Shown here piece after piece: positions 26,357 to 29,906 of a stretch of 64,000 bases of DNA (within the stretch, counting starts at the first letter, position 1; each line of letters starts with the position of its first letter). The stretch lies in assembly GCF_001570405.1 (NCBI RefSeq), contig NZ_BBYM01000015.1, positions 42,274 to 106,273 of the forward strand, written 5' to 3'. Under the pieces are notes generated by a model, which had not been told where the DNA came from, made no database searches, and saw only the letters and a list, made by a program, of their open reading frames with translations. The stretch is from Microtetraspora niveoalba (GTDB lineage: Bacteria; Actinomycetota; Actinomycetes; Streptosporangiales; Streptosporangiaceae). A program made the translations under genes and the position numbers.

Positions 26357-27316
26357 GTGCGAGGGCGTGTACCGGTGGCCGTCGGCTTGGCGGCGGTGGC
26401 GCTGCTGCTGCCCATGACTGGCGCGCAGGCCGACCCCAAGCCCACGGTCGCGCAGGCCAAGGCCAAGCTGAAGAAGCTGAACGAGCAGGCCGACAGGGTC
26501 GTGGACCAGTACAACGCGGCCAACGAGAAGTGGAAGAAGGCCAAGAAGCAGTACGCCGAGATCAACGCCAGCTACGCCGAGAAGGCGGAGCGGGTCGACG
26601 TGCTGCGTACGACCCTGGTGACGGTCGCCTCCAGCGCGTACCAGACCGGCGACGTGATCAGCATGGGCCTGTTCTACAGCGCGGATCCCGACTCGATGCT
26701 CAGCGGTCTCGCCGCGCTCGACCAGCTCTCCCAGGGGCGGGCCAAACGGCTTGAGGAGTACCAGGGCGCGATCGCCGATCTCAAGCGGCAGCGCGACCAG
26801 AAGAAGAGCGTCTTCGACGAGGCGGCCAAGGTCAAAAGCGACCTTCTCAAGGAGAAGAAGAAGGCCGACAAACTGGTCAAGGAGCAGACCGAGCTGCTGC
26901 GCCGCCTCGGGGCGTTCAACGCGGGTAATCCCAACAGCGCGGGCGTCGCCTATTCCGGCCCCGCCTCGGGCAACGCGCTCGCGGCGCTCCAGTTCGCCTA
27001 CCGGCAGATCGGCAAGCCGTACCGTTACGGCGGGACCGGGCCGAGCGGATGGGACTGCTCGGGGCTCGTCCAGGCCGCCTGGTCGGCCGGCGGGGTGTCG
27101 CTGCCGCGTACGAGCTACGAGCAGTGGGCGTGGGGGGCGAGCCGCAGGGTCTCGCTCAGCGAGTTGCAGGCCGGCGATCTGCTCTGGCACGCCGGGTACG
27201 GGCACGTGGGCATCTACGCCGGGGACGGCAAGGTCGTCCACGCCCCCCAGACCGGTGACGTGGTGAAGGTCGTCACGCTCGCCGAGTACCACGCGATCGG
27301 GGCGGTGCGTCCCTGA
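26357..27316 (+). CDS. Secreted NlpC/P60 endopeptidase with coiled coil (RipA-like)
   Basis: A 319-residue exported cell-wall hydrolase. A signal peptide (cleavage after GAQA) is followed by a helical coiled-coil part (about residues 30-190) that resembles the autoinhibitory or FtsX-binding segment of RipA proteins. The C-terminal NlpC/P60 domain contains the catalytic C234 in WDCSGLV, H283 in GYGHVGIY and a third polar residue in VVHAPQTG. These enzymes cut the D-Glu to diaminopimelate bond. The GTG has AAGGGGG upstream. A 23-bp hairpin follows. Confidence 0.92.
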   Translation: MRGRVPVAVGLAAVALLLPMTGAQADPKPTVAQAKAKLKKLNEQADRVVDQYNAANEKWKKAKKQYAEINASYAEKAERVDVLRTTLVTVASSAYQTGDVISMGLFYSADPDSMLSGLAALDQLSQGRAKRLEEYQGAIADLKRQRDQKKSVFDEAAKVKSDLLKEKKKADKLVKEQTELLRRLGAFNAGNPNSAGVAYSGPASGNALAALQFAYRQIGKPYRYGGTGPSGWDCSGLVQAAWSAGGVSLPRTSYEQWAWGASRRVSLSELQAGDLLWHAGYGHVGIYAGDGKVVHAPQTGDVVKVVTLAEYHAIGAVRP

Positions 27317-27358
27317 CCTCGCGTCCCTGATCTCCGTCGCCGGCGGCGACGGCTTCCC

Positions 27359-27408
27359 CGAACACGAGAGCGGGGCACCGGTCAGCCGGTGCCCCGCTCT
27401 CGTGTTCG
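27359..27408 (+). terminator. Very long perfect hairpin after the NlpC/P60 gene
   Basis: A perfect 23-bp stem (27359-27381 with 27386-27408) closed by the 4-nt loop TCAG. The core is GAGAGCGGGGCACCGG. It is 42 nt after the stop codon. There is no U-tract. It is the longest perfect stem I find in the window. Confidence 0.8.
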
Positions 27409-27577
27409 CGGCCCCGGTTCTCGCTTCGCGCGGGGATCCGAGCCGCCGGCGGCCTGCCTGAGAGGCCGGCCGCGCACCCGCGCATCAGTCCCTGGCACCC
27501 TGCTCACCGGACTCGGCGCCCGCGATCGCGAGTCCGGCTCGCCATCGGAAGAATGGGCGCCCCTGCCGCCCGGAGCG

Positions 27578-27599
27578 AAATGTGATGACTTTCACATTT
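27578..27599. promoter_or_regulatory. CRP/FNR-family operator 1
   Basis: TGTGATGACTTTCACA is a perfect TGTGA-N6-TCACA palindrome, extended to 8-bp arms (AAATGTGA / TCACATTT). This is the consensus of cAMP receptor proteins (Crp, GlxR). It lies in an unusually AT-rich stretch about 510 bp before the second NlpC/P60 start. Confidence 0.75.
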
Positions 27600-27670
27600 T
27601 CATCGCTTCGACAGACCTGGACGGCCGATCTTCTTCGGTAAAGAAATCACCAAAATCGATCTACCACTGC

Positions 27671-27714
27671 TGTGGCTTTTGTGGTTGATGTGGCTGATTT
27701 GTGGCGTGTTGTGG
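27671..27714 (+). repeat. Five helically phased TGTGG direct repeats
   Basis: TGTGG begins at 27671, 27680, 27689, 27700 and 27710, with spacings of 9, 9, 11 and 10 bp. All copies are therefore on about the same face of the helix. They sit directly before CRP operator 2. This looks like a cooperative protein-binding array; the protein is unknown. Confidence 0.5.
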
Positions 27715-27718
27715 CAAA

Positions 27719-27734
27719 TGTGAGCAGCGTCACA
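27719..27734. promoter_or_regulatory. CRP/FNR-family operator 2
   Basis: TGTGAGCAGCGTCACA is a second perfect TGTGA-N6-TCACA palindrome, preceded by the same AAA as operator 1. The two centres are 138 bp apart. Confidence 0.75.
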
Positions 27735-27816
27735 ATTGGGTGTCGAATGTATCGGGTATGCAGGCACTTTCGCTTTGCCGGGCCGTTTATTCGATCTCTA
27801 TTTCTTGGCCGGGCCT

Positions 27817-27846
27817 TTGCCGACTTGTGGCACGAATCGGTAACTT
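27817..27846 (+). promoter_or_regulatory. Candidate promoter upstream of the c-di-AMP riboswitch
   Basis: TTGCCG at 27817-27822 and TAACTT at 27841-27846 are separated by 18 bp. A transcript starting near 27853 would contain the whole riboswitch. Other hexamer pairs exist nearer CRP operator 2, so the choice is tentative. Confidence 0.35.
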
Positions 27847-27936
27847 CTGCCCCGCGGTGAGCCGGTCGGCCACCGCCGCGGACACCGGCCCGGTGCCGGG
27901 TTCGCGCACCATCCGTCGCCGTCACGATTTCCGACC

Positions 27937-28088
27937 CCAGGGGCGGCGACCTGCCGAGTCCGTGCAGTCAGGAGGCACGGAGCCGGGGACCCATCGACCT
28001 TCACCGAAGGTCCGGGGTGAATCGGCGCGTTTCGCGCCGTAGGGCGACTTCCCCGCCCGAACCCGTCAGCTAACCCGGTAGGCGCAAG
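27937..28088 (+). promoter_or_regulatory. c-di-AMP (ydaO/yuaA) riboswitch
   Basis: The conserved core is read directly: CCGGGGACCCA, then GGGGTGAATCGG, a GGCGCG/CGCGCC stem, GTAGGGCGACTTCCC, GACCC-type CCCGAACCCGTCAG and CTAACCCGGTAGGC. These blocks, in this order, are the signature of the ydaO family that binds cyclic di-AMP and turns genes off. In actinobacteria it usually precedes wall hydrolases such as rpf and NlpC/P60 genes, exactly as here. The edges given are approximate. Confidence 0.93.
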
Positions 28089-28109
28089 CGGAAGACCATA
28101 GGAGCGATC

Positions 28110-28718
28110 CTGTCCAGCACCCCTGCACGCCTGTCCCGCCTTGCCCGCTTCACGCTGGGCGGCGCCGCGATCACCGTCTCCATGGGAGCCGTCGCGGCCC
28201 CGCCGGCCTCGGCCGACCCCGCGACGGACGGCCTCACCGTGGAGAAGGTCACCACCACCGGCACGACGACCACGACGGAGGCCTCCGCGGAGGCCACCGC
28301 GACCGCCGCCATCGTCTCGAAGACCACCCTCCGGCAGGCCAAGGCGGCCCGCCAGAAGCGACTGGCCCGCAAGGCCATCGACGTGGCCAAGAAGCAGATC
28401 GGCGACCCCTACCGCTGGGGAGCGACCGGCCCCGGCGCCTTCGACTGCTCGGGCCTCGTCCAGTTCGCCTGGCGCAAGGCGGGCGTGGACATCCCGCGCA
28501 CGACCTGGTCCCAGCTCAGCGGCGTCAAGAAGAAGGTCTCCTGGGACCACCTCAAGCCGGGTGATCTCATCTTCACCAGCGGCGGCGGCCACGTCGGCAT
28601 GTACGTCGGCGGCGGCAAGATGATCCACTCACCGCACACCGGCGCCCGGGTCCGCATCGACAAGCTCGACGCGTACCGCAAGAACAGCTTCGTCGGCGCC
28701 GTACGTCCCGGCGCCTAG
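28110..28718 (+). CDS. Secreted NlpC/P60 peptidase under c-di-AMP control
   Basis: A 202-residue cell-wall hydrolase. The start is taken as CTG at 28110 because AGGAG lies 5 nt upstream and this start gives a complete signal peptide (SSTPARLSRLARFTLGGAA..., cleavage near ASA). The first in-frame ATG, at 28182, would cut the signal in half, and there is no ATG, GTG or TTG between. After a Thr/Ala linker comes the NlpC/P60 domain with catalytic Cys in FDCSGLV and His in GGGHVGMY. It is the gene controlled by the riboswitch at 27937-28088, about 20 nt upstream. A hairpin follows at 28746-28765. Confidence 0.88.
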   Translation: MSSTPARLSRLARFTLGGAAITVSMGAVAAPPASADPATDGLTVEKVTTTGTTTTTEASAEATATAAIVSKTTLRQAKAARQKRLARKAIDVAKKQIGDPYRWGATGPGAFDCSGLVQFAWRKAGVDIPRTTWSQLSGVKKKVSWDHLKPGDLIFTSGGGHVGMYVGGGKMIHSPHTGARVRIDKLDAYRKNSFVGAVRPGA

Positions 28719-28745
28719 AGGCCCGCCGCCGCGGCCGGCGCTCAG

Positions 28746-28765
28746 CCGGACCTCCCGAGGTCCGG
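28746..28765 (+). terminator. Hairpin after the riboswitch-controlled NlpC/P60 gene
   Basis: Perfect 8-bp stem (CCGGACCT / AGGTCCGG) with a 4-nt loop, 28 nt after the stop codon. No U-tract. Confidence 0.5.
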
Positions 28766-28770
28766 TGGGA

Positions 28771-28858
28771 CGTTCCCCCCGCCCCGCACCGGCCCGGCGC
28801 CCCCCAGGGCGTTTCCCCCCGCCCGCATCGGCCGGGCTCAGGGCGTTCCCCCCGCCCG
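28771..28858. repeat. Three imperfect direct repeats
   Basis: CGTTCCCCCCGCCC-like units start at 28771, 28810 and 28844, each followed by a GCCGG-rich segment. The spacing is 39 and 34 bp. They occupy the gap between two genes; I see no coding or RNA feature here. Confidence 0.4.
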
Positions 28859-29000
28859 AGCCGGCCGGATCGCCCGGCGCGGGACCCCATCCCGGGCGCG
28901 CCCGGGACGCCCCCGGCCGGGGTGGGGTCCTCACCGGGCCCGTTTCGCGGCCCCGTCCCTCCTTCCCGAGGGGCGGGGCCGCGGCGCGTCCGGCCGCTCG

Positions 29001-29012: not shown

Positions 29013-29906
29013 ATGCGTGCTGTGGCCCGCCTCTCGGCGGCCGTGCTGGTCGCGGCGCCGGTGTTGTCCGGCCTGGCCGCCGACGCGCCGCACGACCGGG
29101 CGCTCGCCACGGCGCGTGCCGTCATGCGGGAGCACCCCGGGATCTGGGCCGGGGCCTCCGTCTCCAGAGGCGAGCACGCCGTCGTCGTCACGGGACGGGC
29201 GGCCGCCGGCGTGGCGCCCCGATCGTCGATATCCGCGCCCGAGGCCCCTCACCCGGGCGGGACCGGGGCCGGGGCCGTCGCGGGGCTGGCCGCCACGGCC
29301 GACACCGCCCGCCGTACGGTCGCCCGGGTGTGGGGGCCGGTGGACGCGGTCGTCCTCGTCCCGGCGACCGACGAGCAGGCGGCGGCGCTCGCGTCGCCCG
29401 CCGGGGTGGAGGGCCTCGCCGCCCTGGCCGACGTCGATCACGTGATCGTCGTGCCGTCCGGGTTCGGCCGGCTCTCCCCGACAGGCCGCCGCGTCGTGCT
29501 CGCGCACGAGCTGACGCACGTCGCCGCCGGAGCCGCGCTCGCCGGCGACATGCCGGCCTGGCTGGTGGAGGGCTTCGCCGACTATGTCGGCCATCTCGGC
29601 AGCGGCCTGCCCGTACGGGCGATCGCGGCGGAGCTGGCCGCCGAGGTCCGCGCGGGAACGCCGCCCGCGGCGCTGCCGGGGCGCGAGGCGTTCCGTCCCG
29701 GCTCGCCGCGGCTTCCGCAGGCGTACGAGGAGGCCTGGCTGGCCTGCCGGTACATCGCCGGACGGTACGGCGAGCACGCCCTCGTGGCCCTCTATCGTGC
29801 GGCGCGCGACCACGACATCGCCACCGCGCTGGTAGAAACGTTAGGCACCGACCTGGCGGAGCTCACCGCGGCCTGGCGAGGGTACCTGCGGAGCGAACTC
29901 GCCTGA
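29013..29906 (+). CDS. Secreted gluzincin metalloprotease (peptidase MA-like)
   Basis: A 297-residue protein with an N-terminal hydrophobic segment (RLSAAVLVAAPVLSGLAA) that can act as signal peptide. Its zinc site is H165-E166-L-T-H169 in LAHELTHVAAG, and the third ligand E186 lies in LVEGFADYVGH. This HExxH plus EGFADY pattern is typical of peptidase MA-like gluzincins. The substrate is unknown. The start is leaderless. It is followed within about 50 bp by an M48 protease gene, so two proteases lie side by side. Confidence 0.8.
   Translation: MRAVARLSAAVLVAAPVLSGLAADAPHDRALATARAVMREHPGIWAGASVSRGEHAVVVTGRAAAGVAPRSSISAPEAPHPGGTGAGAVAGLAATADTARRTVARVWGPVDAVVLVPATDEQAAALASPAGVEGLAALADVDHVIVVPSGFGRLSPTGRRVVLAHELTHVAAGAALAGDMPAWLVEGFADYVGHLGSGLPVRAIAAELAAEVRAGTPPAALPGREAFRPGSPRLPQAYEEAWLACRYIAGRYGEHALVALYRAARDHDIATALVETLGTDLAELTAAWRGYLRSELA

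Follow-up and report, generated by a model that had tools for sequence, protein, structure and literature searches.

Probable joint control of a secreted NlpC/P60 hydrolase gene by cAMP-Crp and a c-di-AMP riboswitch in the Streptosporangiaceae

Do two nucleotide messengers, cAMP at the level of transcription and c-di-AMP at the level of RNA, gate one and the same cell wall hydrolase? An earlier note on this stretch of DNA had proposed that they do, and the conservation of one Crp box, an intact riboswitch aptamer and the presence of genes for Crp, an adenylate cyclase and DisA support this, while the two-box looping design that came with the proposal is not supported as a general feature. Taken as a whole, the region is in our judgment quite probably the control region of a secreted NlpC/P60 hydrolase gated by cAMP-Crp and a c-di-AMP riboswitch.

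The hydrolase gene and its upstream elements

The window analyzed here is a 64-kb stretch of a genome of 8.47 Mb (99.86% complete), which by protein identity (81% to homologs from Microtetraspora malaysiensis and M. fusca) is that of a member of the Streptosporangiaceae near Microtetraspora. The gene at 28110-28718 on the plus strand has a probable CTG start, and by its domain content (PF00877, 5.5e-25 in a domain search) and its signal peptide-like N terminus its product is a secreted NlpC/P60 wall hydrolase, in agreement with the earlier note, which had placed the boxes and the riboswitch ahead of one NlpC/P60 gene. The listing of open reading frames recognizes ATG, GTG and TTG only and therefore begins this frame at 28182, within the signal peptide. 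A second NlpC/P60 gene is the upstream neighbor (26357-27316, plus strand, start uncertain; PF00877, 1.6e-23), and a perfect 22-bp inverted repeat with a 4-base loop and no T run, read from the sequence between both genes at 27360-27407, is the probable terminator of this upstream gene. The next gene (window 29013-29906) encodes a product with a HELTH zinc-protease-like motif, and a similar protein follows the hydrolase in the loci L113 and L122.

A search for related loci yielded 46, from which L055, a distant Oscillospiraceae locus without a riboswitch core, was dropped in all counts. The promoter alignment omits the two Actinomadura loci (L053 and L054) and consists of 43 loci and the window, giving 44 rows which are kin, so that conservation and hairpin counts are not counts of independent events. 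In Planotetraspora, the gene is present in two copies (L022/L037, L023/L031, L025/L039, L027/L032 and L056/L035), each with a riboswitch and a Crp box, and the second copy resembles the Microbispora type. Both Actinomadura loci have a second riboswitch-like core about 0.8-0.9 kb downstream of the first (near 3686 in L053 and near 3842 in L054).

Two Crp boxes lie upstream of the hydrolase gene, a distal one at 27581-27596 (TGTGATGACTTTCACA), the arms of which extend to 27578-27599 (AAATGTGA/TCACATTT), and a proximal one at 27719-27734 (TGTGAGCAGCGTCACA). The two perfect TGTGA-N6-TCACA palindromes described previously are exact: they are the only matches without mismatch in the 64 kb, where the chance mean is 0.02 and two perfect boxes were reached in none of 100 shuffles, and a scan of the same 64 kb with one mismatch allowed gave no match beyond them. 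In the 8.47-Mb genome, 21 perfect palindromes were counted versus 0 for the reversed control, and the motif is therefore a real signal in this organism. Two of the 21 are the boxes discussed here, 138 bp apart; five of the 21 cluster in about 16 kb (C3:36383-52648).

The proximal box keeps its place with no or one mismatch in 42 of 44 sequences (perfect in 36, one mismatch in 6) and is decayed in L042 and L052, with two and three mismatches, respectively. Neither Actinomadura locus has a proximal box, the best matches showing 3 and 4 mismatches. Over the 44 rows, the TGTGA half-site carries 2.0 bits per position versus a mean of 0.27 over the ten bases 27744-27753; the proximal half-sites are nearly invariant, and the next 20 bases rank among the least conserved. 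Among the five c-di-AMP riboswitches of the genome, only that of the hydrolase gene has an upstream box at two mismatches or fewer, and in the window 322 bases separate box and riboswitch core. We also scanned 62 riboswitch loci, 58 from riboswitch searches and four paralogs. Perfect boxes occurred in 5 of the 62, all of this NlpC/P60 gene family (here L113 and L126 are apparently the loci L028 and L031 again), and boxes with at most one mismatch in 12, two mycobacterial-type rpfA loci among them; with the half-sites swapped as a control, none of the 62 had a box, and downstream of the riboswitches there was no perfect box and two with one mismatch. Comparative evidence thus supports a real cAMP-Crp input at the proximal box, from which we infer binding by Crp itself.

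The second input is encoded directly ahead of the gene. A c-di-AMP (ydaO/yuaA) riboswitch aptamer on the plus strand matches the complete RF00379 model (positions 1-134) with 79.1 bits against a cut-off of 38, and its coordinates, 27942-28099, are slightly shifted from the 27937-28088 given before for a full ydaO riboswitch. The aptamer is intact in all 40 loci run through Rfam, out of 46 relatives, and this comparative evidence supports a real c-di-AMP input. In addition, the genome holds the matching regulator genes. Among its 24 HTH_Crp_2 matches three were examined, and L062 is the Crp ortholog, aligning with M. tuberculosis CRP (3d0s) at 288 bits (223 residues, with the stretch VGASRETVNKALADFA identical) and at 275 bits with 4byy, which we take to be the structure of C. 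glutamicum GlxR. The genome further contains a DisA linker domain (183 bits) and one class III adenylate cyclase domain (54 bits).

Where transcription may start

Between the box and the aptamer, two blocks stand out, (C/T)TTT(G/A)C and TANNTT, which lie 25-26 bases apart in 44 of 44 rows. We read them as a plus-strand promoter, P2, with a -35-like TTGCCG at 27817-27822, within the near-invariant CTTTGC block, a spacer of 18 bases and a -10-like TAACTT at 27841-27846 (TANNTT in all rows). This promoter-like pair is found about 95 bp upstream of the riboswitch, with a structured leader between, and the alignment predicts a transcript start here, most likely near 27853, 89 bases before the riboswitch. 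The center of the proximal box would then lie at about -126, and therefore too far away for the usual class I or class II contact with P2. A scan for consensus sigma-70 promoters found no site.

The box could instead serve a class II promoter, P1, with TATGCA at 27757-27762 as its -10 element and the box center at about -42, in which case the P2-like pair would be a second, Crp-independent promoter or the site of another factor. The TATGCAG block to which this element belongs (27757-27763, plus strand) is conserved 19-23 bases behind the box in all 44 rows, with T in 42 and C in 43 at the positions that define it (T...C.G), a distance that suits class II. However, only 26 of 44 rows have an A as the second base of the -10, the sequence in the Microbispora group is TGACCT, and the leader helices with compensatory changes start directly after P2. 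We therefore regard P1 as possible, if on the unlikely side, and keep it as a rival, but favor P2, with Crp working from upstream together with other factors. The unusual spacing between box and promoter that had been pointed out earlier accordingly would hold with respect to the conserved pair, at about -126, but not with respect to the weaker element, at about -42.

With P2 as the promoter, cAMP-loaded Crp would bind the proximal box, and in the Microtetraspora group the distal box as well, and would promote transcription that begins ahead of the leader. It is likely that cAMP-Crp raises transcription in germination or outgrowth and that c-di-AMP lowers hydrolase output. Here the sign of Crp action is taken from S. 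coelicolor and mycobacteria, and the available part of PMC5693915 describes an accumulation of cAMP at that stage in streptomycetes.

The leader, the CTG start and the level of riboswitch action

A transcript from P2 would open with two conserved hairpins and continue into the c-di-AMP aptamer. These are, on the plus strand, a leader hairpin with compensatory changes at 27854-27876 and the P0 hairpin at 27915-27950 (27915-27921 paired with 27944-27950), which immediately precedes the aptamer core; they are followed by the P2 hairpin of the aptamer (27960-27980), the loop of which (27966-27974, AGTCAGGAG) holds a Shine-Dalgarno (SD)-like AGGAG. For these three helices combined, 86.9% of cells are paired and both sides are changed in 39 cells versus 13.2 in shuffled and 5-17 in slid controls, a count which leans towards our reading because the helices were picked by eye beforehand, and in which the Herbidospora rows, out of register at P0, were scored as broken there. 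P0 is unconvincing in L024, L026 and L045. RNAalifold gave a weak partial structure lacking P0 and the leader hairpin for the entire 44-row leader alignment, owing to its long gaps, and the whole-leader fold is not clearly more stable than shuffles (z -1.17).

In all 46 sequences read, the window included, an in-frame ATG, GTG or TTG is absent between aptamer and start. A short way behind GGAG, 43 of them have CTG and the other 3 TTG, and codons 2-26 likewise contain no ATG, GTG or TTG in 24 of these 46 sequences. When four further relatives were included, 46 CTG and 3 TTG were counted among 49 sequences read (50 given) by a script that admitted CTG and TTG starts only, so that support for the start codon rests on the absent in-frame ATG, GTG and TTG. 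We believe that the coding start is most likely the CTG at 28110. Retention of such a start in nearly all relatives read is unusual, and gene finders tend to miss or shorten the hydrolase gene; it also suggests that initiation strength is itself part of the control.

The start codon is included in a putative SD hairpin at 28098-28113 (plus strand), AUAGGA-GCGA-UCCUGU, which in the window has six pairs and -5.9 kcal/mol and is present in the predicted fold of the entire leader. The AGGA of the SD pairs with UCCU, which in most sequences ends within the start codon, around a loop of GAGA, GCAA, GCGA or GAAA; variants are a UUCG loop with UUCU in L123 and GGGA with UCCC in L036, L046, L047, L049 and L051. 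Such a stem, with at least three pairs and a GNRA or UUCG tetraloop, is found in 40 of 49, and this count, over 49 of 50 sequences, is cleaner than a comparison with shuffled spacers. In the latter, the hairpin was present in 37 of 44 members of the hydrolase family (10.6 expected), where 48 sequences were given, 4 were left unparsed (the window, L031, L032 and L039) and 6 were scored as misses after being assigned a false start (L023, L025, L027, L056, L111 and L127). For other riboswitch genes it was present in 16 of 43 (12.5 expected), the 43 being those parsed of 55 loci, some onto unlikely starts.

These observations bear on how the riboswitch acts. One possibility is that it ends transcription prematurely, which has been reported for S. 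coelicolor rpfA (PMC10117811), and that the SD hairpin is incidental. Yet a scan from 27290 to 28900 that required a T run found no terminator-like hairpin, and the SD hairpin far exceeds its shuffled expectation in the hydrolase family but not in other riboswitch genes, which makes termination rather unlikely. The pairing of SD and start codon in a local hairpin, with no terminator, is one mark of a translational riboswitch with a sequestered ribosome site. The riboswitch hence probably acts at translation, via a CTG start held in a hairpin, an element that the earlier note had missed; the missing terminator and the SD hairpin speak for this level, as does the precedent of C. glutamicum nlpC, the riboswitch of which most likely acts at translation (PMC9960051, as far as its available part goes). 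Binding of c-di-AMP would then lower translation by fixing which pairing forms, its OFF direction being that of the known riboswitch class.

How ligand binding might be coupled to the SD hairpin is a matter of proposal. The SD AGGAG and the CUG start would share the tetraloop hairpin that closely follows the aptamer, and the AGGAG of the P2 loop could pair with the same UCCUG: CAGGA at 27969-27973 is complementary to UCCUG at 28108-28112, the segment with the anti-SD and the start codon. The P2 stem shows compensatory change, with one GC pair replaced by AU in 8 rows, and its loop, mostly of 7-9 bases, has AGGA or GGAG in 43 of the 49 sequences read (50 given; L040 and L053 mis-parsed), with changed loops in L027, L045 and L111 and no motif in L054. 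Such a string occurs in 3 of 32 other riboswitch loci read (55 given), in long or mis-parsed loops and none in a comparable one. Covariation cannot test the pairing between loop and start because both segments hardly vary, and in the Microbispora relatives it would amount to 3 pairs only. Tentatively, then, a decoy SD in the P2 loop and the true SD may compete for one UCCUG, such that the ligand-folded aptamer would hold the loop on the start codon and stop translation while cAMP-Crp sets transcript supply. If so, this would be a new kind of c-di-AMP expression platform, and the competition for a UCCUG that contains the start codon would explain why the latter stayed CUG across the family.

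Other upstream signals and known systems

We next consider whether the two boxes cooperate through looping, the design suggested in the earlier note. The spacing of 138-140 bp, about 13 helical turns, is kept in the window and in L011, L012 and L013, that is, in Microtetraspora and the window, but a second perfect box at this spacing is absent in 40 of 44 sequences; in the other two-box case, L026, the second box lies 83 bp upstream, where the sequence looks like the end of the neighboring coding region. Looping is on this evidence improbable.

A response regulator of the MtrA type, rather than Crp, could be the main input, with the GTGAC/TCACA half-sites belonging to its direct repeats. Just upstream of the proximal box, at 27671-27715 (plus strand), repeat scans found TGTGG repeats 9-11 bp apart, which in relatives are of a TGTGAC type (GTNAC-like); the 9-bp pattern has a single exact match with three copies. 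At least three GTGRC or GT(T/A)AC units at 8-11 bp spacing are present in 13 of 44 rows, the window included (for example TGTGACTGATGTGACTGATGTGAC in L040), a level reached for those rows by none of 200 shuffles, and in 5 of 44 the right half of the box shares bases with a GTNAC repeat. These repeats resemble MtrA half-sites as described in the accessible part of PMC13189361, MtrA represses C. glutamicum nlpC according to that of PMC9960051, and the genome encodes MtrA (396 bits). However, most of the 31 rows with fewer than three repeats retain the N6-spaced palindrome, and the repeats of the window are TGTGG and not GTNAC, their GTGGC units fitting the MtrA half-site less well. MtrA as the main input is thus very improbable, and as a possible third input besides Crp and c-di-AMP it is a lead. 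The conserved -10-like block (window 27840-27846) reads GGTAAC or GGTAGT in many relatives and overlaps a GTNAC-like half-site, where a bound response regulator would block the promoter. Elsewhere in the genome, a response regulator gene of the OmpR/MtrA type (C33:14183-14833; 247 bits against the MtrA model) is preceded, at a distance of about 150 bp, by a perfect Crp box (C33:14019-14034). Chance as the origin of boxes or riboswitch is ruled out by the box counts, the reversed control and the recurrence in relatives.

A Crp-type site and a ydaO riboswitch in one region upstream of a peptidoglycan hydrolase gene are an already known pairing, since joint control of wall hydrolases by cAMP and c-di-AMP has been published for S. 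coelicolor rpfA and C. glutamicum nlpC (PMC9960051, PMC5693915; these and the following papers are cited from part of their text). The closest likeness is to C. glutamicum nlpC (cg2402), likewise an NlpC/P60 gene with a c-di-AMP riboswitch, the promoter of which has sites for GlxR (the Crp homolog), MtrA and EsrR (PMC9960051). Its authors suggested that the GGAG of the ribosome binding site and a GGAG of the riboswitch compete for one CTCC (PMC9960051). The competition logic is common to both leaders and the parts differ: in C. glutamicum the shared anti-SD lies within the riboswitch, whereas here it overlaps the CTG start and the decoy would be the P2 loop, and an SD tetraloop hairpin or a CTG start goes unmentioned in the available part of PMC9960051. 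Similarly, S. coelicolor rpfA is a wall hydrolase gene controlled by Crp and by a riboswitch of the ydaO type, as part of a network that involves cAMP and ppGpp (PMC5693915, PMC9960051, PMC10117811), but it encodes an enzyme of the Rpf class, and premature termination has been reported as the mode of action of its riboswitch (PMC10117811). Mycobacterial rpfA, which encodes another enzyme, is activated by Crp (Rv3676; PMC3871856), and in the rpfA-like loci L099 and L101 a riboswitch is accompanied by a box with one mismatch. New here are the conservation of dual control in another family, a CTG start retained among relatives, the tetraloop hairpin of the SD and the resemblance of the P2 loop to an SD; we found no description in the open literature of this hydrolase family in the Streptosporangiaceae, nor of its CTG start, SD hairpin or P2 loop, which is weak evidence of novelty.

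Finally, the pairing of cAMP at the DNA level with c-di-AMP at the RNA level on wall hydrolases extends through a third actinobacterial family, and the leader described here offers a testable answer to the question raised in C. glutamicum of how a c-di-AMP riboswitch without a terminator may reach the ribosome.
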